From NCBI RefSeq assembly GCF_000426825.1, contig NZ_AUGC01000005.1, positions 62,001 through 126,000 on the forward strand: DNA of 64,000 nt, written 5' to 3'. Within the stretch, counting starts at the first letter, position 1. Every line of letters starts with the position of its first letter. This document shows, one piece after another, positions 8,817 through 44,166 of this stretch. The notes beneath the pieces are model-generated. The model worked only from the letters and a program-made list of their open reading frames with translations. It ran no database searches and was not told the origin of the DNA. Both the position numbers and the translations under genes were made by a program. The DNA comes from Thermonema rossianum DSM 10300 (lineage in GTDB: Bacteria > Bacteroidota > Bacteroidia > Cytophagales > Thermonemataceae).

Positions 8817-10463
8817 TTAATTTTTCTCATAGACTGCAAAGAATGCATTGACATACACCAAACGACCGGCGGCGGCCATTGGGGCATTTGACCGGGGTAG
8901 AATAAGATAAGAAGCGCGAGTAGGGCAGGGAGGCTTTTGAGGAGGGTAGCCGGCTTGCCAATCCTTTTGCCCTGTATATTTCTTGTAAAGCAGTGTGGTA
9001 TATATCCAGTCGTCGTGGGTCTCAACGCAGCCGGCTTGCCGGGGAATTGCTTCAATGGCTTTATTCAAAGCGAAATAGCTCTGCCATCTGTCACTAAATG
9101 AAAGCGCATAATCTGATTGAAGCCACAGGGCTGCTGCCGCGCAGACAACCACGAGACCGGTACCATGTCTGTGCGTACCACTTGCTGTCCGTCCAAGCAT
9201 CCACCAGAAAGGCAAGGCAAGAAACAGCCATATGCGGGCGGGTGGCTGTAGTCCTTGTACGGCAGTCACTATCCAGGGTATGATGAGGAGGCAAAAAATT
9301 GCTTTGTCTTCTTTTGTAAAAGAAATAACTTTGAATTTCAATGAAAGTGTGTATGTAATCAATACCCCCCCAAAAAGCATCAGCATGAAGGGATTGCCAA
9401 AAAGAAAAAGCATCACAGACCATAGATAAGCAGGAAACCACCGGAACCATTCCGCCCTTGTCATGGAGGCAATAAATGGCGACTGCCAAAAAAGCCAGCC
9501 TTGTGTCAACACGAAGGGGGCATACAGCAAGGTTGTGAAGAAAATCACTTGCAGGTGCATCCAAATGAGCCACCTCCGGCGGAATCCATAGCCCCATGCG
9601 CAAGCAGCTGCCAGAGCCAGCCATGCATACAAGTGGGTCGGCAAGGTATAAAAAGCCAAGCAGTTGACACAGACAAAAAAACGGCGGGCAAGTATCGAAT
9701 GCCCGAGTGCAGGCAGCAGGCGCAAGGCAAACGCCACCCAAAAACCATGTAAAATATAAGCGCGCCCCAAGCCGGCATATACCATCACGCCCTCTATCCC
9801 ATGAAAAGCTACCAGCAGCAAAGCAGCAATGGGAGGCGATAGTTTCCACCGGCGCAGCGCCGTGTCTGTCAATAACATGCCCAGGGCAACAACAGCCAGC
9901 AGGGAGGGAAGCTTAACAGCCCAGAAAGCAGGCAGGAATTTGTCGAGCAAAGCCGCGCATAAATTATAGAACACATGATGGTTGGGACCGGGATAATAGG
10001 TAAGACACACAAGCACTCCCCGCCGGATAAGGTGTACATACCCAAAAGCTTCGTCTATATGAGGCAGAGGAAAACGCGCGATTTCGAAAGCATACCATAT
10101 GCCCGTAAATAGAGGCAAAAGCAGTACTATTGCGCGGGCTTGAAGTGAATTCTTGTAAAAATCCAATATACTTTGAGATTCAATGTGTAAGCTGCGTGCC
10201 AATTCCTTGCTTTTCCGGCAGACATAGGGCAGTATGCCAAACAGAAGGGAAGTGCCCACAGCTATGATGACTCGTGCAGTATGCCACCGCCAAGGCGGAA
10301 ATAGCTCTTGCAGCTTTTGGCTCTGTGTATGCGACAGGGCATAATGTTCAGAAAGCCATGCTATCAGCTGTTCATAAGAACAGCTTTGAAGCAGCACCCA
10401 AGTGAAGATAAAAAGGAGTCCCGCGCCGTACAGGCTTTTGATGGATAGCTTCTGCATAGGCAT
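8817..10463 (-). CDS. GT-C-like polytopic membrane protein, probable glycosyltransferase
   Basis: This 548-residue protein has about 11-12 hydrophobic segments. After a membrane helix it carries PHIDEAFGYVHL, an acidic DE motif typical of the first extracytoplasmic loop of GT-C enzymes (PMT/ArnT type), and then YYPGPNHHVFYN. A soluble C-terminal region follows (about 470-548, including CVETHDDWIYTTLLYKKY). GT-C enzymes transfer sugars from polyprenyl-phosphate donors on the outer face of the membrane. The family is inferred from topology and this motif only. It is upstream of, and probably co-transcribed with, the hexapeptide acyltransferase. An alternative start two codons later is possible. 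Confidence 0.72.
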   Translation of the reverse strand: MPMQKLSIKSLYGAGLLFIFTWVLLQSCSYEQLIAWLSEHYALSHTQSQKLQELFPPWRWHTARVIIAVGTSLLFGILPYVCRKSKELARSLHIESQSILDFYKNSLQARAIVLLLPLFTGIWYAFEIARFPLPHIDEAFGYVHLIRRGVLVCLTYYPGPNHHVFYNLCAALLDKFLPAFWAVKLPSLLAVVALGMLLTDTALRRWKLSPPIAALLLVAFHGIEGVMVYAGLGRAYILHGFWVAFALRLLPALGHSILARRFFVCVNCLAFYTLPTHLYAWLALAAACAWGYGFRRRWLIWMHLQVIFFTTLLYAPFVLTQGWLFWQSPFIASMTRAEWFRWFPAYLWSVMLFLFGNPFMLMLFGGVLITYTLSLKFKVISFTKEDKAIFCLLIIPWIVTAVQGLQPPARIWLFLALPFWWMLGRTASGTHRHGTGLVVVCAAAALWLQSDYALSFSDRWQSYFALNKAIEAIPRQAGCVETHDDWIYTTLLYKKYTGQKDWQAGYPPQKPPCPTRASYLILPRSNAPMAAAGRLVYVNAFFAVYEKN

Positions 10464-10550
10464 TTATTTACGATGCAAGATAGGAAATTGAAGGAAGCGA
10501 TTGCGCCCGAAAATATACGCTGCTTCTTGCTGTATTTATTAAATAAAGCA

Positions 10551-10645
10551 TGTCATTCGAACGAGCGAAGCGAGTGAGTTCAAATCCAACCATATCACAA
10601 TAAAAGCAAAAGAAGAGGTTGCCCGCTTGCGCTCAGAGGAGACAA
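10551..10645. repeat. Dispersed repeat, second inverted pair
   Basis: A unit at 10551-10585 (TGTCATTCGAACGAGCGAAG) faces a degenerate inverted unit at 10611-10645 (GCCCGCTTGCGCTCAGAGGA). It resembles the elements at 7817 and 33990. The rest of the gene-free stretch 10464-10881 holds an AT-rich run near 10735-10765 and no clear gene. Confidence 0.55.
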
Positions 10646-10881
10646 GGGGGCGTTTTAAAGAGAACAAGAGGCAGAAACAAGCAAGAAGGCAAGATGAAAT
10701 AGGTGATTTTTTAAAAAAAAATCACTTGCGTGATAGTATTATTATTGTTATTATTTTATTACTAAACCATCAAGCTGCGAACGCAGGGCATGCGATGTCG
10801 GCTAAGTATGCTTTCCGGAGTTCGAAGCTTGCGCCATTGACGTCGTCTAAACCACATTTCACTCCAAAAAAAGATAAAATC

Positions 10882-11853
10882 ATGAAACAGCTACATGTTC
10901 AAATTAAGTTGTGGTGCTTGCTGCTGTGCTTGTTGCCGGTAGCATGTCACAATCCGGAGGTGAATGCCCCGGAGGAGCAATTTCAACAGCTGGATGAGAC
11001 CGCAGATGTGCCCTTTAGTGGCGATGTTCTTTTCGTGCCGGAGGGAAGCCGCCTGGAGCAACGCGCTGCCGAAGACTTCGTGCGTTTTGAGTTGCCGGAA
11101 GGCTACGCTTTTGTAGGAAAAGATGAAAGAGGGGAGCCTTTTTTGATAGTAGAGCCTGTGGGTGTAATATGCACCTGTTTGGATGGTGGAGGTGGTTGTA
11201 GCCCCGTTAGGAGAGGGAGTAACTTTGACTGCTTAATGACTACTTGTGGGAACTGTAGGAAAGAGGCATATAGACTTTCGGGTGAAGGGAAGCAAAAATT
11301 TGAACTCTTGGGAGTCGTTTACAAAGGGAAGGCGGAAGAAGCGCTTTCATTATTTGGAGACAAAGAGCCGCCTGTCCTGCGAATTGTTTCTGTGGGCGCG
11401 GATGAGCAAGCTGCCCGGCAGCTTTCGTTCATGGAAGGCTTTGCTTTGGTTTCTGCCGGTCTTTTGGAGCAGGACAAGCTTATTCCCGCGCCTTTCCACA
11501 AAGAATATCTCGATTTGCCGGGCGTGCGGGCTGCTGTGAACGAATGGGCAGAGAATCTGAAAACTGCCGGATGGAATGAAGAGATGCAAAAACACTTTGC
11601 CGCTACAGGAGAGCTGCCCAAAGGATTTGTTTTGGTAAAAGCTGCCATTTATGGCATACCGGTTGCTTTGGTAACCCCACAAGGCAATGACCTTAACCGC
11701 TGGGCACTACTGAAGAGGGCCGCGGGAGTAGTGGAAATAGAAGGAGGGGTGAAGTGCTCGTGTTTGAAAGGAGGAAGTGTATGCCCGAAGAACAGTATGC
11801 TTGGAGTGGTTTACTGTGACGCGAGCAATTGCAAAAGCTGCAAGATGGAATAA
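10882..11853 (+). CDS. Lipoprotein with duplicated six-cysteine module, function unknown
   Basis: This 323-residue protein has a lipoprotein signal with the lipobox cysteine at C22 (LLPVAC). It carries two cysteine modules of identical spacing, C-x-C-x6-C-x10-C-x4-C-x2-C. The first is C97, C99, C106, C117, C122 and C125. The second is C292, C294, C301, C312, C317 and C320, ending three residues from the C-terminus. The first and third-to-last positions share CxCLxGGxxC. Between them is a cysteine-poor region of about 165 residues. The pattern suggests two metal sites or disulfide knots in the periplasm or on the cell surface. I do not recognise a named family. The ATG at 10882 is preferred to an in-frame start at 10627, which lies in repeat DNA. 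Confidence 0.82.
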   Translation: MKQLHVQIKLWCLLLCLLPVACHNPEVNAPEEQFQQLDETADVPFSGDVLFVPEGSRLEQRAAEDFVRFELPEGYAFVGKDERGEPFLIVEPVGVICTCLDGGGGCSPVRRGSNFDCLMTTCGNCRKEAYRLSGEGKQKFELLGVVYKGKAEEALSLFGDKEPPVLRIVSVGADEQAARQLSFMEGFALVSAGLLEQDKLIPAPFHKEYLDLPGVRAAVNEWAENLKTAGWNEEMQKHFAATGELPKGFVLVKAAIYGIPVALVTPQGNDLNRWALLKRAAGVVEIEGGVKCSCLKGGSVCPKNSMLGVVYCDASNCKSCKME

Positions 11854-11882
11854 GAAGCAAGTCTTTTAGCGGGGTAGCATTT

Positions 11883-11920
11883 GCCGGAAGAAGCCACCGT
11901 GCTTTCTTCCGGCTTTTTTT
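11883..11920 (+). terminator. Intrinsic terminator after the cysteine-module lipoprotein
   Basis: A 10-bp stem (GCCGGAAGAA at 11883-11892 with TTCTTCCGGC at 11904-11913) is followed by seven Ts. Confidence 0.9.
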
Positions 11921-12005
11921 ATGACGCGCTTGCCGCTATTCATACGCCTTTCTTTCCCTTTACACGATTTTCACTAATTTGCCTTTATCCCAATGTTTTT
12001 GCGAT

Positions 12006-12410
12006 ATGCGTGCTTTGCTACCCAAGAAACGATGGTTTTTCTGGATGCTTTACTTCCTGCCTTTTGTATTGATGCGGGATGTATATCCCTTTTTTCGTTT
12101 TTCGATGTTTGCCACGCCCGTGTCGCGGGCGGCTTATACCGAGCGCTACGAATGGTATGTTCGGCAAAGCCGGGCGGAAAAGTGGCAGCTGCTTGCCCCC
12201 GAAGTCATCGGCTTGGATGAAGCCCTTTTTTATTACCGTGCAAGGAGGGCCAACATCACAAAGCAGGGTAGTGCCTTCTTGGCAATACTTATGGAAGTGT
12301 ATCGTCAAAAGAGAGAAGCGCTGCCGGCAGCAAGCTTGCTGGTAGAAAAGCGCTTTAAACAGGGGCAATATCTCGATTCGCTGGTGGTGGCTCAATGGAC
12401 AAGACCATGA
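12006..12410 (+). CDS. Small membrane-anchored protein upstream of an HTTM protein
   Basis: This 134-residue protein is not recognised. It has one N-terminal transmembrane or signal-anchor segment (KKRWFFWMLYFLPFVL, about residues 7-22), then an amphipathic, basic and acidic region of about 110 residues. I chose the ATG at 12006 because it immediately precedes the anchor. An upstream in-frame start at 11979 would add nine residues of no evident signal character. Its end overlaps the next gene by 16 bases, so the two are probably translated together and may act as a pair in the membrane. Confidence 0.68.
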   Translation: MRALLPKKRWFFWMLYFLPFVLMRDVYPFFRFSMFATPVSRAAYTERYEWYVRQSRAEKWQLLAPEVIGLDEALFYYRARRANITKQGSAFLAILMEVYRQKREALPAASLLVEKRFKQGQYLDSLVVAQWTRP

Positions 12411-34196: not shown

Positions 34197-36785
34197 ATGA
34201 AACACATTTGGATACCCTTGGTAGCATGCCTGTTTTTGATGGGGCAGCCCCACACAAGCCATGCACAGCTCTTTGGCAAGAAAAAGAAAGCCAAAACACA
34301 ACAGCAAAGCACCCCCCAAGAAAAAAAGAAAAAGAGCATTGAAGACATCACGGCCAAATGTACAGCCTACGACGGCCTGTTTAAGCTCTATCAAAACAAA
34401 GAAGACGGCACGGTGTATATGCTCATCGAAGCACCTCAGCTGGACAAAGAGTATATTTATTTCAGCCATGTGGTGGACGGTGCCGTGCCCGCCGGCAGCT
34501 TCCGCGGCGCTTTTCGTGGCAATGCTATCTTTTCAGTGCGTCGCCACTTCGACCGCATCGAGTTTATCAATAAAAACACTTCTTTCTACTTTGACCCCGC
34601 CAATCCTTTGAGCCGCGCCGCACATGCCAACATCAGCGATGCCGTGCTGGTGAGTGTAAAGATAGAAGCCGCCGATGAAAAGCAAGGGCGCTATTTGATA
34701 AAGGCAGATGAAGTGTTTTTGGCAGAGCACTTCAATCCTGTCAAACCCAATTATCCGCCCGGATATAAGGGCTTTAAGTTGGGCAACCTGAGCAAAGACA
34801 AAACTAAATTCGTAGCTCTGAAGAATTATCCTGCCAATACTGATGTGGTGGTGGAGTATGTGTTCGATAATGCCAACCCTGAAGGGGGGGCAGAAGAACT
34901 GGCAGACAGCCGCTTTGTGAGCATTTTCTTTCAGCACACCCTCATAGAGATGCCACAAAACGATTTCGTACCCGTATTGGACGACCCGCGTGTGGGCTAT
35001 TTCACCACCCAAGTAAACGACATGACCACCACTGAGGCAGTGAACTACCGTGACTTGGTGCACAAATGGCATTTGAAAAAGAAAGACCCCAATGCCGAAC
35101 TCTCCGAGCCGGTAGAGCCTATTGTCTTTTGGATTGAAAATACCACGCCGTATGAGTTTCGCGACATCATACGCCAAGCCGGCTTGCGCTGGAACGAAGC
35201 CTTCGAAAAAGCAGGCTTTAAAAATGCCGTTGAAATACGCGTGCAGCCCGACACCGCCGATTGGGATGCCGGCGACATCCGCTACAACGTCTTGCGCTGG
35301 ACCTCTTCGCCCACCCCGCCTTTCGGCGGCTATGGCCCCAGCTTCGTAAACCCGCGAACGGGGCAAATATTAGGTGCCGACATCATGCTGGAATTTGTAT
35401 TCTTTACCAACCGCTTGCGCCAGCAAGAAGCCTTCGACGTGGCCGGCATTAGCCAGTGGTTGCAAAGCAAGGAAGCATGGCTGGAGAAACACCCGCACGC
35501 CTGCGAAGCTTCTTATTATATGCATCAGGCAGCCCTGTTTGGCGTAACCACGCTAAGTCTTACCGGCGCCTCGGAGACCGAAATCAAAGAATACGTCGAA
35601 AATGCGCTGTATTATCTGGTATTGCATGAAATGGGGCACACCTTGGGCTTGAACCACAACATGAAAGCAAGCCAATTGCATATGCCCGACAAAATACATG
35701 ATAAGCAACTCACCGAGCAAATAGGCTTGACGGCATCGGTGATGGATTACCCCACTGCCAACCTGGCACTGGACAAAGAAAGACAGGGGCAGTTCTTTAC
35801 CACCAAGCCCGGTCCTTATGATTTGTGGGCTATTGAGTTTGCCTATGGCAACCTGGAAGAGCCCGAAGCAGAGGCGCAACGCCGTCAGAAGCTGCTGGCC
35901 CGCTCTACCGAGCATGAGCTTATGTTTGGCAATGATGCCGACGACATGCGTGCGCCGGGCAGAGGCATAGACCCCCGCGTGATGATTTATGACTTATCGG
36001 GCGATGTGGTGACTTATTCCATGCAGCGCTTGGAGCTTTGCCGCCGTTTGTTGAACAACCTGCTGGACCGCTATCGTCAAGCACATGAAAACGAATCTTA
36101 TCAGCTGTTGCGCAATCAATACTTGATTATCACCACTGAAATGGCGCATGCAGCCAACAACTTGTCGCGCTATGTAGGGGGCGTGTATGTAGAACGTGCT
36201 TTCGTGGGGCAGAAGGGGGCTACTCAGCCCTTCAAGCCGGTAGAGCGGGAAAAGCAAAAGCAGGCTATGCGTAATCTGGAGCGTTATGTGTTTGCGCCCG
36301 ATGCCTTCAATGCCCCTTCTACCTTGTATGCCCACTTGCAAATGCAGCGCCGTGGCTTCAACTTCTTCGGCAACAATGAAGACCCCGAAATCCACACCCG
36401 TGTATTGAATATTCAACAAACCGTATTGGCTCACTTGCTGCATAGCAATACCTTGACCCGTATTGTGGACAGTGAGCTTTACGGTAACGACTATTCTTTG
36501 GGCGAAATGATGACCGACCTGACCAATGCCATCTTCATGGCAGACCTGAACGGAAAAGTAAACACCTTCCGCCGCAACCTTCAGGTAGAATACGTGAACC
36601 GTTTGCTGCAGGTAGCCGGCTTGCACAAAGGACAGCAATACCCGCATGTGGTGCGCGAAATGGCTTTCTATGAGCTACAACGCATCAAAGACTTGATGAA
36701 ACGCAATGCAGGCACCGATGTGGCAACCAAAGCACACCGCAGCTATTTGGTGTTTTTGATAGAAAAAGCAGAACAAGAAGACTAA
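34197..36785 (+). CDS. Zinc-dependent metalloprotease with DUF5117-type domains
   Basis: This 862-residue secreted protein has a signal peptide ending at about residue 23 (SHAQ), followed by a lysine-rich linker. The zinc site is HEMGHTLGLNHN, with H477, E478, H481 and H487 (HExxHxxGxxH, metzincin type). The N-terminal half fits DUF5118/DUF5117 (including KYNPILE-like barrel strands) and the catalytic part fits the DUF4953 group common in Bacteroidota. Substrate and role are unknown. It is monocistronic with its own promoter box and terminator. There is no T9SS C-terminal domain, so it probably stays in the periplasm or outer membrane. Confidence 0.9.
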   Translation: MKHIWIPLVACLFLMGQPHTSHAQLFGKKKKAKTQQQSTPQEKKKKSIEDITAKCTAYDGLFKLYQNKEDGTVYMLIEAPQLDKEYIYFSHVVDGAVPAGSFRGAFRGNAIFSVRRHFDRIEFINKNTSFYFDPANPLSRAAHANISDAVLVSVKIEAADEKQGRYLIKADEVFLAEHFNPVKPNYPPGYKGFKLGNLSKDKTKFVALKNYPANTDVVVEYVFDNANPEGGAEELADSRFVSIFFQHTLIEMPQNDFVPVLDDPRVGYFTTQVNDMTTTEAVNYRDLVHKWHLKKKDPNAELSEPVEPIVFWIENTTPYEFRDIIRQAGLRWNEAFEKAGFKNAVEIRVQPDTADWDAGDIRYNVLRWTSSPTPPFGGYGPSFVNPRTGQILGADIMLEFVFFTNRLRQQEAFDVAGISQWLQSKEAWLEKHPHACEASYYMHQAALFGVTTLSLTGASETEIKEYVENALYYLVLHEMGHTLGLNHNMKASQLHMPDKIHDKQLTEQIGLTASVMDYPTANLALDKERQGQFFTTKPGPYDLWAIEFAYGNLEEPEAEAQRRQKLLARSTEHELMFGNDADDMRAPGRGIDPRVMIYDLSGDVVTYSMQRLELCRRLLNNLLDRYRQAHENESYQLLRNQYLIITTEMAHAANNLSRYVGGVYVERAFVGQKGATQPFKPVEREKQKQAMRNLERYVFAPDAFNAPSTLYAHLQMQRRGFNFFGNNEDPEIHTRVLNIQQTVLAHLLHSNTLTRIVDSELYGNDYSLGEMMTDLTNAIFMADLNGKVNTFRRNLQVEYVNRLLQVAGLHKGQQYPHVVREMAFYELQRIKDLMKRNAGTDVATKAHRSYLVFLIEKAEQED

Positions 36786-36817: not shown

Positions 36818-36845
36818 ACCCGCCTTCTCGGAGGCGGGTTTTTTG
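36818..36845 (+). terminator. Intrinsic terminator after the zinc metalloprotease gene
   Basis: An ACCCGCCT-type stem with AGGCGGGT (36818-36825 with 36832-36839) is followed by seven Ts. Confidence 0.9.
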
Positions 36846-36942: not shown

Positions 36943-37818
36943 ATGGCTGCTTCTACGCTATATCAGTGGGTTTTATACTTTCATCATTTTAGGCATCCGC
37001 TTTCACTGCGGGAAATACAAACGCTTGCCCGTTCGCTTAATTTGCCGGCAGACAGCTATAAAACCCTTTTGGCAAATGGACTTTGTGAGTTGCGTCACGG
37101 TCATATAGCGCTTACAGGAGAAACAGCCATTATAAAAGAACGTCTGCGCACCTATCGTCGAACCCGTCTGTACCGCTGCATTGCTATATGCTGGAGCTTT
37201 GTGCTTAAGCAATTACCTTTTGTAAAAGCTGTTTTTGTATCGGGGTCGCTTTCGAAAAATCATGTGAAAGCCGGCGGCGACATCGATTTTTTTGTGATTA
37301 CCAAGCGAAAACGTCTGTGGGTGGTGTACTTTCTGTTCCGGGTATTGAAGACCATCTGTTGGGGAGGCAGGTCGCGTTTCTTCTGCTATAACTATTTGCT
37401 TGATGAAGACCACCTGCAACTACCCGCATGCAACGAATATATAGCGATGGAAGTATGGTCGCTCGTGCCCATGTATGACCCATTCGGTATGTATGGGCGG
37501 CTGTGGGAGGCAAACCCGGCTTTAAAAGCATACTTGCTGCCACCGCCTGTTAACAAGCCCTTTTTTAAGAGCAGAAGCCGTTTGCAGCAGCTGTTCGAGT
37601 GGCTTCTGCCGGCAAAAGCCATGCAGACATTCAATGATTACTGGTTTCGTCTGATATACAAACGCTGGCAAAAGAAGTATGGACAATGCTTTCATCCTGT
37701 CGAAGGCATCGACATCCGGGAGGGGGTTTTTAAAGGACATATGAAGCCTCATTACCGTGATATACATCAGGGGGTACAGGCCGTTTTATGTAAATACAAG
37801 GCTTTAAAAACATCTTGA
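36943..37818 (+). CDS. Nucleotidyltransferase-domain protein
   Basis: This 291-residue protein contains a pol-beta-type nucleotidyltransferase core: GSLSKNHVKAGGDIDFFVIT (about residues 100-119), with the GS signature and a DxD pair. An N-terminal winged-helix-like segment (REIQTLARSLNLP) precedes it. The C-terminal half is basic and aromatic. The ATG at 36943 is preferred over an upstream start at 36883 with an unlikely leader. It is the first gene of the six-gene run to 42986, with a 4-base gap to the radical SAM gene. The substrate is unknown. Confidence 0.78.
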   Translation: MAASTLYQWVLYFHHFRHPLSLREIQTLARSLNLPADSYKTLLANGLCELRHGHIALTGETAIIKERLRTYRRTRLYRCIAICWSFVLKQLPFVKAVFVSGSLSKNHVKAGGDIDFFVITKRKRLWVVYFLFRVLKTICWGGRSRFFCYNYLLDEDHLQLPACNEYIAMEVWSLVPMYDPFGMYGRLWEANPALKAYLLPPPVNKPFFKSRSRLQQLFEWLLPAKAMQTFNDYWFRLIYKRWQKKYGQCFHPVEGIDIREGVFKGHMKPHYRDIHQGVQAVLCKYKALKTS

Positions 37819-37822
37819 TACA

Positions 37823-39247
37823 ATGCGTATTCTTCTCACCAACAGCTACCGTTACCGGGCAGACAAAAAACAATGGAAAGCCAAGCAGTGCTATCCACCC
37901 TATGGCACCGCCTGGGCGGCAGCCTTGCTCCGGCAAGAGGGCTATCAGGTGGACTTTCTGGACCACCACTTGCGTAAAGATGCCCGCGACTATACCGATG
38001 CGCTTTTTGCTTTGCGTCCCGATGTGGTAATTATTTACGATGATCAATTCAACTACTTGACCAAGATGTGCCTGCAGCACCAACGGACTTTTGCCCTGGA
38101 GCTTATACAAACAGCGGCTTCTTTGAATATACCTGCAATTGTTTATAACTCTGATGCACAGGATTTCCCTCTTGAATACCTGCAGGCGGGCGCACACTTC
38201 GTATTGAAAGGAGAGGCAGAAGAAACTATAAAAGAACTGTTGAAGGAGTATGCTGCCCATAAGCAGTGGAGCTATGAGGTGCCCGGCTGTGCTTTTTTGA
38301 AAGATGGACAGCTACAACTGACCGCCCCACGTCCTCTGATGCGAGATCTGGGAGCACTGCCGCCACCCGATTGGCAGCTGTTGCCCCTGGACGATTACCG
38401 TGCGCTTTGGCATAAATATCACGGGTATTTTTCTGTGGGTATTGCCACCACGCGTGGTTGTCCCTATAAATGCAATTGGTGCGCGAAGCCTATTTATGGT
38501 AACCGTTACTTTATGCGTCCGCCGGAGCAGGTCGCCGCCGAAATAGCTATGCTCAAACATCAATTGGGGGTGGGGCATTTGTGGATGATGGATGATATTT
38601 TTGGGTTGCGTTCCGACTGGCTTGCTGCTTTCCGGAAAGAAATTGAGCGCCTCGACGCGCGCTTGCCCCTGAAAATACAAACCCGGGCAGATTTGCTGTG
38701 TGGAAAACAAGCGATGGAAGACCTGCTTGCCGTGGGGCTTCAAGAAGCATGGATAGGTGTAGAAAGTGGCTCACAACGCATTTTAGATGCCATGGACAAA
38801 GGCATCACCGTGGAGCAGGTGCAGCAGGCAACACGTAAGCTGAAATCAGCGGGAGTAAAAGTAGGCTGGTTTTTGCAGTTTGGTTATTTGGGAGAAGATG
38901 AGGCAGACATTGCCGCCACCTTGCACCTTATTGAAATTTGCATGCCCGACCATATAGGTATTTCGGTGGCTTATCCGTTGCCCGGCACCCTCTTTTATGA
39001 AAAAGTGCGCAGCTTACTGAAAGACAAAGACCATTGGCAGGATTCCGACGACTTGGACACAATGTATCAGGCACATTTCCCAAGACCTTTCTATAAGCTC
39101 TTGCACCGTTACGTGCATTGTAAGTATCAGTATCTAAAAAGCAAAGATTTTTTGAAGTACAAAGTAAAAAAACCACTGCTTTCTTGGCGCATGCGTTACT
39201 ACAAAAGGCGAATGGAAGAGCTTGCCTCGCAGGCACTTCCTTTTTAG
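37823..39247 (+). CDS. Radical SAM protein with N-terminal B12-binding-like domain
   Basis: This 474-residue protein has the radical SAM cluster motif C213-x3-C217-x2-C220 (RGCPYKCNWC), then GVESGSQRILDAMDKG and a C-terminal basic tail. The N-terminal part (about 1-165) looks like a cobalamin-binding Rossmann domain (PPYGTAWAAALLRQEGYQVDFLD, VLKGEAEETIKELL), but I do not see a DxHxxG motif, so cobalamin may bind base-off by other residues or not at all. This class performs methyl transfer, rearrangement or ring chemistry. It is the central unusual enzyme of the gene run and follows the nucleotidyltransferase by four bases. Confidence 0.9.
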   Translation: MRILLTNSYRYRADKKQWKAKQCYPPYGTAWAAALLRQEGYQVDFLDHHLRKDARDYTDALFALRPDVVIIYDDQFNYLTKMCLQHQRTFALELIQTAASLNIPAIVYNSDAQDFPLEYLQAGAHFVLKGEAEETIKELLKEYAAHKQWSYEVPGCAFLKDGQLQLTAPRPLMRDLGALPPPDWQLLPLDDYRALWHKYHGYFSVGIATTRGCPYKCNWCAKPIYGNRYFMRPPEQVAAEIAMLKHQLGVGHLWMMDDIFGLRSDWLAAFRKEIERLDARLPLKIQTRADLLCGKQAMEDLLAVGLQEAWIGVESGSQRILDAMDKGITVEQVQQATRKLKSAGVKVGWFLQFGYLGEDEADIAATLHLIEICMPDHIGISVAYPLPGTLFYEKVRSLLKDKDHWQDSDDLDTMYQAHFPRPFYKLLHRYVHCKYQYLKSKDFLKYKVKKPLLSWRMRYYKRRMEELASQALPF

Positions 39248-39275
39248 TCAGATTCCAAGAAATAAATATGTGCTT

Positions 39276-40076
39276 ATGAGTGCTACTGAGGCATTTAGCC
39301 GGCAGTCGGTATATTTTGATACACTGGAAGAAAAGCACCGGGTACTGACGTATTTGCGTGCACAGGTGCGTGCGCATGTGCGCCGTTTTATTGAGCCCGG
39401 TGATTTTATGTTGGAGCTAAATGCCGGCACCGGGTTGGATGCTCTTTATTGGGTAAAACGGGGCGTAAGGGTGCATGCCACCGATGCCGCCGAAGGTATG
39501 CTCAAGCAATTGCATCAAAAAAAAGAGTATAGCTCCGCCGGAAGAATGACGGTTGAATATCTTGACTTTACCCGTATTGAACACCTGCAATACAAGGGAT
39601 TCAGTTATGTGTTTTCAAACTTTGGCGGTTTGAACTGCACCGCAAACCTGGAGGCCGTCATGGATGGGCTTATGCCTTTTTTGGCAGCAGAGGCCACCAT
39701 TACTTGGGTTTTGATGCCGCCTTTTTGTTTGCGGGAAGCCTTAAAGCTGTTGCGTGGGCGTTGGCGCTATGCGAGCCGGCGTTGGCGGGGACACACAACG
39801 GCACATTTAGAGGGAGTGCATTTTCCTGTGTACTACCATGCCCCGGGCAAAGTGAAGCGTTTGTTTCAATCTTATGGTTTCGAAACAGTGGCGCTTGAAG
39901 CCATGAGTCTGCTTTACCCGCTGCCTGAAGAAGAGGAGTGGGCAAAAAAACACCCTCTTTTGACCAGATGGTGCAGCTACTTGGATTCGAAGCTGCGTCA
40001 TCGGATGCCTTGGGCAGCTTGGGGCGACCACTACATCATTACGGCACGAAGAAAAAAGCAGTACGCATGCGTATAG
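39276..40076 (+). CDS. Class I SAM-dependent methyltransferase
   Basis: This 266-residue protein has the SAM loop MLELNAGTGLDALYWVKRGV (E-x-N-x-GTG) and the following D-A-A-E acidic residues. FSNFGGLNC takes the place of the usual fourth motif. The C-terminal half contains many arginines (LLRGRWRYASRRWRGH), suggesting binding to acidic or membrane-linked substrates. I chose the ATG at 39276; an upstream in-frame start at 39222 overlaps the radical SAM gene. Its stop overlaps the next start by 10 bases, supporting co-translation. Confidence 0.85.
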   Translation: MSATEAFSRQSVYFDTLEEKHRVLTYLRAQVRAHVRRFIEPGDFMLELNAGTGLDALYWVKRGVRVHATDAAEGMLKQLHQKKEYSSAGRMTVEYLDFTRIEHLQYKGFSYVFSNFGGLNCTANLEAVMDGLMPFLAAEATITWVLMPPFCLREALKLLRGRWRYASRRWRGHTTAHLEGVHFPVYYHAPGKVKRLFQSYGFETVALEAMSLLYPLPEEEEWAKKHPLLTRWCSYLDSKLRHRMPWAAWGDHYIITARRKKQYACV

Positions 40077-41194
40077 CGCTCATGCTTTACGGAGGAATAG
40101 GCGGAGGATTCATGGCCGAAGGAGTGCCGGTGGTGCAACAGTATGCCCATCGTTTAGGTAAGCACTGTGCTTTGACCGTCTTTTCCATGTTGCGGCCGGC
40201 GCAGGCATTTGCCCCTTCAACTTACAGCTTCTTGCATGCCGGAGGGCATGTAGGAGGTTCGGTGAAATGGAGTGCCTTGCGCTTGGCTTACCGTTTTGCA
40301 CAAGAACACCGCCGGCAACCGTTTGATTTACTGCATGTATTGTGGGGATATCCTGCCGGATTTTGGGGAGCATGGATAGCACGCCTTTTTTCACTGCCTT
40401 TCGTTCTTACCTTGCAAGGGGGCGAGGTGGTTTATTTGCCCGAGTACCGGTATGGTGCCTTGGGTAAAAAGCGTGTGGCTACCCGTTTGCAGTATGCATA
40501 CAAGCAAGCCAAGCGCATCATTTGTTTAAGCTGTTATCAAAAAAACAAATTGCCCGCGCAATGGCATCACAAAGTGCAGGTCTTGCCTTGGGGAGTAGAT
40601 ATCCGCCATTTTGCGTTCAAAGAAAAAAACATAGAGTATCCGCTGCGATTCCTGCATGTAGCCAACCTTCAACCTTTGAAGCGAAGTATAGAAGCGTTAC
40701 AGTTTTTTGAGTACTTCATCCGTCAGACGCAAATACCGGCCCGTTTGGATATCGTAGGCGATGGAAGTGCTGTACCCTCACTTTGGAAATATGTACAAAA
40801 TGAGCCGCTACTGTCCCGGTCAGTACACTTTTGGGGACACCTGTCACATAAGAAGTTGCCTGCTTTTTATCAAGAAGCTCATTTCTTTCTTCACCCCTCT
40901 GCTTATGAAGCACAGGGTGTGGTACTTGCCGAAGCCATGGCATCGGGCGCGGTGGTGGTAAGTTCTGTCGTAGGAATGGCAGCTGATTTGTTGAATGAAC
41001 ATGCTACCTTTATTCCGTGGGTAACGCATGAAGCGCTTACTCAAACTATTTTGCACATGCTTAATAAACCGCGACTTTACGTAGCTATGCAGCAGGAAGC
41101 CCGCAGGCAGATAGAACTGCACTTTGATCAAGGCAAGCACATGGAAAGTATGTTGAAAATATATGAGCAGGTATTGAAGAACACATCGCAGTAA
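40067..41194 (+). CDS. Glycosyltransferase family 4
   Basis: This 375-residue GT-B-fold enzyme has an N-terminal acceptor domain (MRIALMLYGGIGGGFMAEGV, LTLQGGEV) and a C-terminal donor domain (FLHVANLQPLKRSIEAL, LDIVGDGS, HPSAYEAQGVVLAEAMASG), with the GT4 E-x7-E motif at EAQGVVLAE. It should transfer a sugar from a nucleotide sugar to an acceptor in the cytoplasm. The ATG at 40067 begins directly at the fold and overlaps the preceding methyltransferase by 10 bases. Confidence 0.93.
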   Translation: MRIALMLYGGIGGGFMAEGVPVVQQYAHRLGKHCALTVFSMLRPAQAFAPSTYSFLHAGGHVGGSVKWSALRLAYRFAQEHRRQPFDLLHVLWGYPAGFWGAWIARLFSLPFVLTLQGGEVVYLPEYRYGALGKKRVATRLQYAYKQAKRIICLSCYQKNKLPAQWHHKVQVLPWGVDIRHFAFKEKNIEYPLRFLHVANLQPLKRSIEALQFFEYFIRQTQIPARLDIVGDGSAVPSLWKYVQNEPLLSRSVHFWGHLSHKKLPAFYQEAHFFLHPSAYEAQGVVLAEAMASGAVVVSSVVGMAADLLNEHATFIPWVTHEALTQTILHMLNKPRLYVAMQQEARRQIELHFDQGKHMESMLKIYEQVLKNTSQ

Positions 41195-41197
41195 ACA

Positions 41198-42238
41198 ATG
41201 ACTCATGTGCAGGGAAACATAAATAGACATCGCCCTTTAAATGTGTTGGCGATTCGTATGCAAGCCAATGGCGATGTTTGGCTTACCTTGCCGTATTTGA
41301 ACGCTTTGCGCAAACAACTGCCACAGGGTAGCCGCTTGCATTTTCTTACACGTGCTGAAACAGCCCCCGTGCCTGTGGCAAGTGGTATTTTCGATAAGAT
41401 ATACATACTGAAAGGGGGAAGAAGCACTAAGCGCCAGCGATGGCATGCCTTGTGGCTGAAAAAAAGACTGAAAGGCACAAAGTATGATGTGGTGATAGAT
41501 TTGCAAAACCATGCCTTGAGCAGGCAAATTGTCCGCTCATTGAAGCCTGCAGTACAGGTGGCTTTTGACAAATACAGCCCTCGCCCCGCAGGCGTACGCA
41601 CTCAAGCAGCTTTAATAGCTGCCGGTTGGCAGGTGTCGCCTGATTATGATTTCCCCGGCCGGGCATGTTGGCGGCAGGAAGGAGCCGCTTTGCTGCGCGA
41701 CCATGGTTGGCAGGGCGAGCCTTTGATAGTATTGAATCCTGCGGCTTGCTTTGCCTCCAGGCAGTGGCCTGTGGAGCGCTTCGCAGCTTGGGCAAAGCGC
41801 TGGGTGGATGAAATATGCAGTAATGTATGCTTCGTATTGTTGGGTACCAAGCAGGGAGTTGCCCGCCTTCGGCAACTAAAACAACGATTGGGTGATTGTC
41901 GCTGCATCGACTTGCTTGGCAAAACAACGGCGGCACAGGCATGGGGTATTTTGTTGAATGTGTCTTTGGTGTTATCGGAAGATTCTGGCTTGATGCACCT
42001 GGCTTGGAGTAGTGGGGTGCCTACGGTCGCTTTGCTGGGGGGCACCCGCAGCGATTGGGCGCGTCCTTTGGGGCAGCATACTTTCTGTTTCGACAGTGGA
42101 GCGTTCGCATGCCACGATTGTATGTGGACACATTGTGTGTGGCAGCCACCGCCTTTGTGTATGTCAAGTTTCACAGTAGATAAAGTATTGGCACAATGTT
42201 ATGTCTTATGGGAAAAATATGAACAAAGAACATTTTGA
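41198..42238 (+). CDS. Glycosyltransferase family 9 (heptosyltransferase-like)
   Basis: This 346-residue GT-B enzyme has VVIDLQNHALSRQIVRSL, the ADP-heptose-type site LNPAACFASRQWPVERFA, and SEDSGLMHLAWSSGVPTVALLGGT with the D-S-G-L-M-H signature. GT9 enzymes usually act in LPS core synthesis, but the acceptor here is unknown. The C-terminus has a CHDCMWTHCVW cysteine cluster, as in many GT9 members. It starts three bases after the GT4 gene. Confidence 0.92.
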   Translation: MTHVQGNINRHRPLNVLAIRMQANGDVWLTLPYLNALRKQLPQGSRLHFLTRAETAPVPVASGIFDKIYILKGGRSTKRQRWHALWLKKRLKGTKYDVVIDLQNHALSRQIVRSLKPAVQVAFDKYSPRPAGVRTQAALIAAGWQVSPDYDFPGRACWRQEGAALLRDHGWQGEPLIVLNPAACFASRQWPVERFAAWAKRWVDEICSNVCFVLLGTKQGVARLRQLKQRLGDCRCIDLLGKTTAAQAWGILLNVSLVLSEDSGLMHLAWSSGVPTVALLGGTRSDWARPLGQHTFCFDSGAFACHDCMWTHCVWQPPPLCMSSFTVDKVLAQCYVLWEKYEQRTF

Positions 42239-42986
42239 TGTATTTCATCGCAAGCCTTTGTTTCAAGATGCAGGCGTGTATCACTGGGACGAACCTACAC
42301 CGGCGGTTGAGCGCTTTGAGCAGCTGTATGTTGCCCTGCGACGCCAAGAAGGGTGGCTCATGGATGACGAAGCCGTGAGGCAACTGCCGTACTGTGAACA
42401 ACCGCAGACAAAGGATTTTTGGCGGTGGCGCCGCCGGAGCATGCTTGCATGGCATCGTTATGTGAAGAAAAAAAATCGTGACAAACAGCTTTTTATACTG
42501 GATATAGGATGTGGCAACGGTTGGTTATCTTACAGAACTGCTTCCTTGGGGAATGTGGTGGTGCATGCGCAAGATGTAAACCGCAGGGAGCTTACACAGG
42601 CGGCGCGGGTTTTTGCACTGCCCAACTTGTATTGGCATTTTGCAACAGGCACCGGACACATACGCCCGGAGAGTTTTGACCTGATACTGTTGGCGGCTTC
42701 GGCGCAATATTTTGCCGACCTTCCGGCTTTGATAGAAGAGCTGTTGCCCTTACTAAGAAAAGGCGGAGAGGTGCATTTGCTCGATACTCGTTTCTATAAG
42801 GACAGGCAGGCGTGTGCATCGGCATGCCTGCGGACCGCCGGTTACTACCGGGAGATGGGCATGGAGGATATGCAGACTTATTATCACCACCATTGCCTGG
42901 AGGATTTGCGCCCCTTTCGTTTTAAAAAGAGGCGCAACCGCCGATGGCGTTCTCATCCCTTAGACTGGCTCTGTATATACAAATGA
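42219..42986 (+). CDS. Class I SAM-dependent methyltransferase, last gene of the run
   Basis: This 255-residue protein has the SAM loop ILDIGCGNGWLSYRTAS, an acidic residue in AQDVNRRE, and FDLILLAASAQYFADL as the fourth motif, then LLRKGGEVHLLD. It resembles methyltransferases that act on sugars or lipids. The ATG at 42219 overlaps the GT9 gene by 20 bases; an ATG at 42201 is also in frame. It closes the six-gene block, with no obvious terminator before the arsenite pump. Confidence 0.87.
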   Translation: MNKEHFDVFHRKPLFQDAGVYHWDEPTPAVERFEQLYVALRRQEGWLMDDEAVRQLPYCEQPQTKDFWRWRRRSMLAWHRYVKKKNRDKQLFILDIGCGNGWLSYRTASLGNVVVHAQDVNRRELTQAARVFALPNLYWHFATGTGHIRPESFDLILLAASAQYFADLPALIEELLPLLRKGGEVHLLDTRFYKDRQACASACLRTAGYYREMGMEDMQTYYHHHCLEDLRPFRFKKRRNRRWRSHPLDWLCIYK

Positions 42987-43060: not shown

Positions 43061-44113
43061 ATGAGCCGTCCGGCCAAAAAATTAAGCTTTCTCGATCGCT
43101 ATTTGACCTTATGGATTTTCTTGGCAATGGGAGTGGGTGTGGCTATAGGTTATTTCTTTCCGGCTGTCGCCGGCCACATCGAATCCATGAGCAGCGGAAC
43201 CACCAATATTCCCCTTGCCATAGGTTTGATATTGATGATGTATCCCCCTTTGGCAAAGGTTGATTATTCTCTGTTGCCACAAGTGTTTCGAAACACACGT
43301 TTGTTGGCAATATCCCTGTTGCTCAACTGGGTGGTAGGTCCTTTATTGATGTTTTTCTTGGCGATAGCTTTTCTTCCGGAATATCCCGGATACATGGTGG
43401 GATTGATACTTATAGGTTTGGCGCGCTGCATTGCCATGGTGCTGGTCTGGAACGACCTGGCAGACGGCAGCCGTGAATACGGTGCCGGCTTGGTGGCGCT
43501 CAACAGCTTGTTTCAGGTGTTTGCTTACAGTTTTTATGCTTGGATTTTTATTACGGTTCTTCCGCCTTTTTTTGGCTTTGAAGGAGCAATTGTCGATATA
43601 TCCGTAGCGACTATTGCAGAAAGTGTGGCTATCTACTTGGGCATCCCTTTCGTTTTGGGGTGGGCAACGCGCTTCATATTGGTGCGCCGCAAGGGAGAAG
43701 AGTGGTACATGAAGCGATTTATACCGGCTATTTCCCCGCTCACGCTCATTGCCTTGCTGTTTACCATCGTATTGATGTTTTCACTGAAAGGGGAGTTGAT
43801 TGTAGAAATCCCCAAGGACGTTTTGCTTATCGCACTTCCGCTGTTGATTTATTTTGCTCTGATGTTTATTATCGGCTTTGCAATCACTTACCGTTTGGGG
43901 GCTTCTTACGACAAAGCCGCATCGGTGGCTTTCACGGCAGCGGGTAATAACTTTGAATTGGCCATAGCTGTGGCTATTGCGGTGTTTGGTTTGAACTCGG
44001 AACAGGCTTTTGCCGGCGTGATTGGCCCTCTGGTAGAGGTGCCTGCGCTTATCCTTTTGGTGCGCCTGGCTCATTGGATACGCCGTCGCTATTACCGGCA
44101 TCAGAATGCTTGA
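43061..44113 (+). CDS. acr3: Arsenite efflux transporter, ACR3 family
   Basis: This 350-residue protein has ten predicted membrane helices and ACR3-type features: [15 protein letters not shown], the conserved cysteine in [35 protein letters not shown] and [12 protein letters not shown]. These transporters expel As(III). No arsenate reductase or ArsR regulator is adjacent, so it may be constitutively expressed or controlled from elsewhere. The gap to the glycosyl run is 74 bases. Confidence 0.93.
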
Positions 44114-44136: not shown

Positions 44137-44166
44137 ACAGCCCCTCGAACAAGGGGCTGCTTTTTT
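44137..44166 (+). terminator. Intrinsic terminator after acr3
   Basis: An 8-bp stem CAGCCCCT/AGGGGCTG (44138-44145 with 44152-44159) is followed by a T run. It lies between convergent genes, next to the stop of the kdnB-like gene. Confidence 0.9.

Follow-up and report, generated by a model that had tools for sequence, protein, structure and literature searches.

The run of six genes considered here lies in a 64,000-nucleotide stretch of the Thermonema rossianum DSM 10300 genome (assembly GCF_000426825.1, contig NZ_AUGC01000005.1, positions 62,001 to 126,000), which is referred to below as the window. Six open reading frames (ORFs) occupy positions 36943-42986, all on the + strand, separated by gaps of 4, 28, and 3 bases or overlapping by 10 and 20 bases. 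The first gene, NT (36943-37818), encodes a winged-helix domain (residues 1-60) followed by a Pol-beta-type nucleotidyltransferase; the second, RS (37823-39247), a radical S-adenosylmethionine (SAM) enzyme with a B12-binding-like N-terminal domain; and the third, MT1 (39276-40076), a class I methyltransferase-type protein with an SNFGGLNC motif and a match to Pfam Methyltransf_25 at 27.4 bits (cut-off 27). Downstream lie GT4 (40067-41194), a glycosyltransferase (Pfam Glycos_transf_1, 80.7 bits), GT9 (41198-42238), a heptosyltransferase-family glycosyltransferase (Pfam Glyco_transf_9, 94.6 bits), and MT2 (42219-42986, with an alternative start at 42201), a second class I methyltransferase (Pfam Methyltransf_25, 40.3 bits). 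The tight one-strand packing noted in a first-pass annotation of the sequence is real, and the family names assigned there hold in Pfam, two of them marginally (NTP_transf_2 for NT and B12-binding for RS). There was also no sign that each gene is the known copy of a separate pathway, as all six proteins fall short of the NCBIfam cut-offs of the families listed.

Comparison with other genomes demonstrates that NT, RS, and MT1 form a conserved unit that is kept or lost together across the Bacteroidota, and that GT4, GT9, and MT2 are an accessory, varying part of the locus. In an order-level search, RS relatives were detected in 8 of 194 genomes (that of T. rossianum included); NT, RS, and MT1 adjoin one another in the six loci extending past RS, and NT adjoins RS in a seventh that ends in RS. 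These seven loci were combined with the best 80 of at least 537 confirmed relatives from named genomes into a set of 87 loci, which favors close relatives and Bacteroidota; 77 of the best 80 carry Bacteroidota names, the exceptions being L052 (Acidobacteriota) and L079 and L096 (Ignavibacteria). MT1 lies directly 3' of RS on the same strand in 67 of the 87 loci (4 further loci end there), NT lies directly before RS in 47, and both junctions consist mostly of overlaps or gaps of a few bases. Within 10 kilobases (kb) of RS, NT is found in 65 loci and MT1 in 74. The adjacency counts are lower bounds, since the ORF caller retains the longest ORF and can mask NT, as it did through a spurious ORF in L081 (read as L114) and L039 (read as L117); L075 carries the same spurious ORF. 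The first-pass annotation had treated all six genes as a unit, a claim that stands for NT-RS-MT1 and fails for the six as a fixed set, in which GT4, GT9, and MT2 vary. A fixed six-gene operon is accordingly rejected, only NT-RS-MT1 being constant across loci.

A sample of 395 genomes from the phylum, searched at E-values up to 1e-60 for RS, 1e-8 for NT, and 1e-30 for MT1, contains RS in 28 genomes, NT in 31, and MT1 in 32. Of the 28 RS genomes, 27 contain both NT and MT1; these 27 span 13 families (kinship column) and all have RS matches of 465 bits or more, whereas the RS match in the remaining genome, G447, is partial (207 bits) and probably represents a paralogue. By the listed coordinates, NT lies no more than 10 kb from RS in all 27 (the NT match of G471 is split over two contigs). 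The Fisher p-values, which ignore kinship, are 2e-36 for RS with NT and 1e-35 for RS with MT1. These data bear on the possibility that unrelated genes of separate known pathways, such as GT9 and GT4 of a lipopolysaccharide (LPS) core and stray methyltransferases, have been packed together by chance. GT4 and GT9 are common families, the T. rossianum genome has two further GT9 genes (three in all), and although the search for the same gene order in relatives recovered NT-RS-MT1 across families, the exact one-strand six-gene order occurs in none of the 87 loci. However, the joint presence of NT, RS, and MT1, the nesting of MT2 and of another family, RSx (described below), within RS genomes, and the existence of three other loci with all six families make chance packing highly improbable overall and contradict it for NT, RS, and MT1; because NT-RS-MT1 recurs across families, the grouping seen in the run is not accidental.

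In 22 of the 87 loci, RS has no called NT within 10 kb. Twenty of these were followed up (L029 and L046, which are short, were left out), and NT is present in 19 of the 20 genomes; in G592 (L086), counted among the 19, the gene is partial, and no NT was found in the genome of G593 (L091). Where the NT surroundings were read, in ten of these genomes, NT adjoins RS after all in two and lies elsewhere in eight. The first-pass annotation had held that finding the genes scattered in relatives would speak against a common pathway; scattering is thus partly observed, yet the gene is retained, and the parting of NT from RS without loss is good evidence that the two function jointly. The detached NT in L110 (G588:C13:19001-38000), one of the eight, at 9274-12059, stands beside relatives of MT2 (76%) and of the methyltransferase family c10 (81%), away from L074, the RS locus of the same genome. 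The NT matches in G582, G587, G575, and G581 (4 of the 19) contain one or two internal stop codons, reflecting decay, sequencing error, or overextended matches.

The accessory genes differ among loci in number and kind. MT2 occurs in 11 of 34 genomes with RS versus 0 of 38 without it, 32 of the 38 controls coming from one order. RSx, another B12-type radical SAM family, is present in 32 of the 87 loci and in 16 of the 395 genomes, all 16 within the RS set, and is not found in the genome of T. rossianum; with 57-76% identity to the first sequence of its alignment (20 of the 32 aligned), it looks more uniform than RS, for which identities to the window's own, divergent protein are 43-49%. Examples include L013:17357-18928 and L015:16961-18457, and RSx often lies beside a methyltransferase of family c7 or c10. 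An RS paralogue, RS2, occurs within 10 kb in 33 loci. MT2 and RS2 were considered as strict alternatives and rejected as such, since 19 loci have MT2 only, 25 have RS2 only, 8 have both, and 35 have neither, which amounts to a tendency at most. The surroundings of some loci also include a SPASM radical SAM protein, an amidohydrolase, and additional methyltransferases, and large islands of RSx, the SPASM protein, the amidohydrolase, methyltransferases, and Wzx/Wzy-type genes were observed in L063, L066, L067, and other Mucilaginibacter and Dyadobacter loci; the best NCBIfam match of the island amidohydrolase is the aminofutalosine deaminase family (62.5 bits, cut-off 320). GT4-like genes lie near the core in several relatives, and all six window families occur within 10 kb in 3 of the 87 loci (L012, L072, and L073), where NT-RS-MT1-MT2 faces GT4 and GT9 on the opposite strand. 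A DUF5777 membrane beta-barrel gene was also seen near the core in genomes of different families (L012:7538-8395 and L015:12846-13769).

The RS protein matches Pfam Radical_SAM at 76 bits and carries a CX3CX2C motif (C213-C217-C220) in which C217 and C220 are invariant and C213 nearly so in 56 sequences. Its AlphaFold2 (AF2) model, built with the same number of sequences, has a mean predicted local distance difference test (pLDDT) score of 84.7, and the predicted fold is like that of AprD4, OxsB, MgmA, and TsrM (VIA structure comparison, Z 27.2, 25.9, 24.4, and 24.1, respectively). OxsB, TsrM, and MgmA align to RS from its residue 1 or 2 onward, so that the B12-like N-terminal domain proposed in the first-pass annotation is upheld by the predicted fold as a B12-type Rossmann domain. 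The closest match, AprD4 (PDB 6fd2), is the radical SAM 1,2-diol dehydratase of apramycin biosynthesis and acts on a sugar-type substrate, as is proposed for RS; 421 RS residues align to the 453-residue chain at 3.7 A, yet the two are only 19% identical. AprD4 has a partner, AprD3, and is not known to need cobalamin despite sharing the fold. MgmA (9ccb), TsrM (6wte/6wtf), and OxsB (5ul4) share the two-domain architecture at 14-24% identity and are cobalamin-dependent with differing substrates, whereas cobalamin binding by RS is putative; MgmA gives both the best Foldseek E-value (1.1e-20) and the best PDB sequence-profile score (92 bits). RS scores below the NCBIfam cut-offs for BchE (119 versus 481 bits), HpnJ (109 versus 578), HpnR (75 versus 650), MJ_0865, i.e., MgmA (102 versus 360), AprD4 (49.8 versus 500), and PhpK (68 versus 600). 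Members of this radical SAM subgroup use a common scaffold for different mechanisms (PMC8992657).

The NT protein matches Pfam NTP_transf_2 (PF01909) at 21.2 bits, barely above the cut-off of 21, and its AF2 model has a pLDDT of 92.1 (50 sequences). Comparison of the predicted structure matches residues 1-60 to winged helices and superposes the core on the ANT(4')/kanamycin nucleotidyltransferases (6un8 and 1kny; VIA Z 9.4-9.6 over 113 residues, 3.0 A). The SGS...DxD pattern of these enzymes is also found in NT, with S100, G101, D113, and D115 invariant and S102 nearly so in the 50 sequences; the GS...DxD pattern together with the fold places NT among the Pol-beta-type nucleotidyltransferases, although the third catalytic carboxylate was not located. 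In contrast to ANT(4'), NT has an N-terminal winged helix and is only 16% identical, and no resistance role is implied. For RS and NT alike, a shared fold shows no function, and the absence of a family from the VIA lists is no exclusion.

These structural relationships raise the possibility that the product is a soluble natural product resembling an aminosugar or pseudosugar antibiotic, which the core would make or decorate, on which the glycosyltransferases would act, and which NT would adenylylate for processing or self-protection. The best VIA matches are suggestive in this respect, that of RS belonging to the apramycin pathway and those of the NT core being aminoglycoside 4'-nucleotidyltransferases, as are the larger loci with RSx, the SPASM protein, the amidohydrolase, and further methyltransferases, and the patchy distribution of RS. 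However, the fold argument does not carry over to function, and neither the six proteins nor the ten scanned neighbors score above an NCBIfam cut-off for such a pathway among the families listed. Relatives of Wzx, Wzy, and GT87 close to the core suggest glycans that are polymeric or lipid-linked, and a soluble product is considered unlikely.

The preferred interpretation is instead that NT, RS, and MT1 constitute one biosynthetic pathway for tailoring a saccharide or glycolipid of the cell surface, with GT4, GT9, and MT2 as local extensions, a reading given a probability of roughly 0.55. The single pathway is argued from the finding that all 27 genomes with strong RS matches hold NT and MT1, and that RSx and MT2 are nested within RS genomes. 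The core probably makes an unusual surface molecule, and the modified saccharide or glycolipid product suggested in the first-pass annotation is still the best guess, with somewhat better than even prospects. In such a pathway, GT9 and GT4 would lengthen a short sugar chain carried by a lipid or by the LPS core, and NT would move a nucleoside monophosphate, or some other group linked through phosphate, from a nucleotide onto a hydroxyl of the intermediate. With SAM and its [4Fe-4S] cluster, RS would target an unreactive carbon in the saccharide intermediate, through cobalamin-dependent C-methylation (which receives about half of the weight) or through an AprD4-like diol dehydration or other rearrangement. 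O- or N-methylation would be the task of MT1 and MT2.

A more concrete form of this proposal, by analogy with Fom1 and Fom3 of the fosfomycin pathway, is that the group set by NT serves as a nucleotidyl handle recognized by RS. PMC8158854 describes Fom1 as cytidylylating the substrate and Fom3, a B12 radical SAM enzyme, as methylating the cytidylylated substrate. The Streptomyces pair resembles NT and RS in that one pathway combines a nucleotidyltransferase with a radical SAM enzyme of the B12 type. Unlike Fom1, NT has a Pol-beta/ANT-type fold and a winged helix, and the cytidylyltransferase domain of Fom1 has a different fold; the fosfomycin locus also contains phosphonate genes, whereas the core is surrounded by glycosyltransferases. 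It is rather unlikely that NT handles a sugar and that RS, joined by RS2 and RSx in the larger versions, remodels the handled sugar to yield a new class of Bacteroidota surface glycan; if true, however, glycan carbons would be modified beyond the reach of polar chemistry, and the supply of vitamin B12 would set part of the structure of the cell surface. LicD/fukutin proteins (PF04991), which are nucleotidyltransferase-superfamily enzymes that use CDP (cytidine diphosphate) conjugates and act on glycans (PMC11666461), provide a model for an NT acting on a glycan, but PF04991 is not among the Pfam matches of NT at E-values up to 1.

The surroundings of the core make a tie to glycans likely, though not proved, on the basis of gene content. 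Neighbor clusters labeled GT4, GT2, GT9, GT87, Wzy_C, Polysacc_synt (Wzx), Bac_transf, and ABC transporter were counted as glycan genes where a scanned member exceeded its Pfam cut-off, which EpsG does not; the ABC transporter cluster scores 215 bits with PglK, far below the cut-off of 1000. Without EpsG, 31 of the 87 loci have two or more glycan genes within 10 kb (34 with EpsG), including 28 of the 65 NT-linked loci (31 with EpsG). The first-pass annotation had stressed the lack of a flippase or polymerase, which is true of the window, where Pfam identifies neither in the run itself nor in the gene on each side of it, but not of all relatives, since a Wzx-, Wzy-, ABC-transporter-, or sugar-phosphate-transferase-type gene occurs within 10 kb in 22 of the 87 loci (25 with EpsG). 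In Mucilaginibacter and Dyadobacter (L063 and L067), the core sits beside Wzx-, Wzy-, and several glycosyltransferase-type genes as in Wzx/Wzy-dependent O-antigen or capsule loci; unlike such loci, the core in the window has no such adjoining genes, and the cores of many relatives have no glycan genes nearby. The T. rossianum genome contains one O-antigen-ligase-type gene above its cut-off.

Several observations weigh against the proposed tailoring of a surface saccharide. Fewer than two glycan genes are present within 10 kb in 56 of the 87 loci, only 3 of the 22 loci lacking a called NT have two or more (whether or not EpsG is counted), and no gene in the eight neighborhoods of detached NT has its best match in a glycan cluster; moreover, the glycan-gene counts are raw, and each cluster was labeled from one or two members scanned with Pfam. 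At the thresholds used, NT occurs without RS in four genomes and MT1 without RS in five (G312 has NT and MT1 about 2 kb apart and lacks RS). For NT, Foldseek returns nothing under an E-value of 1e-3, and its structural kin act on aminoglycosides or proteins. The binding of cobalamin by RS is putative, the Pfam B12-binding score being 31.0 bits, just below the cut-off of 32.1, and the best VIA match of RS, AprD4, being a dehydratase. The RS of the window is furthermore a divergent member of its family, 43-49% identical to the aligned relatives and placed on a long branch (2.03) in the RS tree, and its own chemistry may therefore differ.

A further possibility is that the substrate is a macromolecule, with the winged-helix NT binding or nucleotidylylating RNA or protein, RS and MT1 methylating it, and the glycan genes being bystanders. 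The winged helix itself, the weak resemblance of the NT core to MNT antitoxins, which transfer adenosine monophosphate (Foldseek, E 1.5e-3), and the best Foldseek E-value of RS, obtained with a protein methylase (MgmA), are consistent with this, as is the low glycan-gene content (none or one) of 19 of the 22 loci where RS had no NT called within 10 kb. However, many loci place RSx and MT2, two families confined to RS genomes in the samples tested, in the midst of glycosyltransferases, and RS is patchy (28 of 395 genomes), whereas RNA or ribosome modifications are not usually patchy in their presence; a macromolecular substrate is consequently considered quite improbable.

The region around the run offers some indication of its transcription. 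A terminator-like hairpin (36818-36839, + strand; 9-pair stem and T-run) lies between an upstream metalloprotease gene and NT, and the next one in the scan list is at 44138-44159, after the arsenite efflux gene acr3 (43061-44113, + strand; NCBIfam acr3 444.2 bits, cut-off 282.8); the hairpins are pattern matches only, 19 having been found versus 10 expected. Given the spacing of 74 bases between MT2 and acr3 and the position of the second listed hairpin past acr3, the transcript of the run may reach through acr3, which is probably merely a neighbor. The upstream gene (34197-36785) encodes a large DUF5117/DUF4953 (met-zincin) metalloprotease-type protein, and no tie to the run was seen. The G+C content of the run (0.46-0.51 per kilobase) is like that of its surroundings (0.44-0.54). 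An anti-phage defense system was set aside, since PADLOC showed similarities to single models only (mad2, 48.2 bits for MT2 and 23.5 for MT1; PDC-M51A, 22.6 for RS) and no match for NT, GT4, or GT9.

The recent history of the locus can be read from a sister species, G041, in which the flanks of the run are present at 82-88% identity without the six genes and most of acr3. About 16 terminal acr3 codons are left between the same flanking genes (L107, G041:C1:490001-504000), and RS and MT2 were not found elsewhere in the G041 genome. The remnant of acr3 points to a deletion of the six genes and most of acr3 in G041, and the alternative of an island inserted into the genome of T. rossianum was rejected because G041 keeps the acr3 end. 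All six genes would then have been present in the ancestor of the two species. On a broader scale, the RS tree (quick method) mixes families, placing Ohtaekwangia with Chitinophaga and Dyadobacter beside Mucilaginibacter, a pattern that would be expected with gene transfer. The RS of L052, on a contig labeled Thermoanaerobaculia (Acidobacteriota), groups with Saprospiraceae, reflecting either transfer or a mis-binned contig.

No description of the NT-RS pairing or its product was found in the open-licence literature, among the matches listed, whereas the enzyme families themselves are known. The joint retention or loss of these three enzymes across a phylum is the mark of a biosynthetic step that none of those matches describes. 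Named carriers of the core include Mucilaginibacter corticis MAH-19, Dyadobacter frigoris AR-3-8, Ohtaekwangia koreensis DSM 25262, and Lewinella cohaerens DSM 23179, which make it testable. If the core acts on surface glycans, it would offer a nucleotidyltransferase and a radical SAM enzyme whose pairing can be tested, serve as a genetic marker of sugars made by radical chemistry in environmental Bacteroidota, and link vitamin B12 to the structure of their surface.

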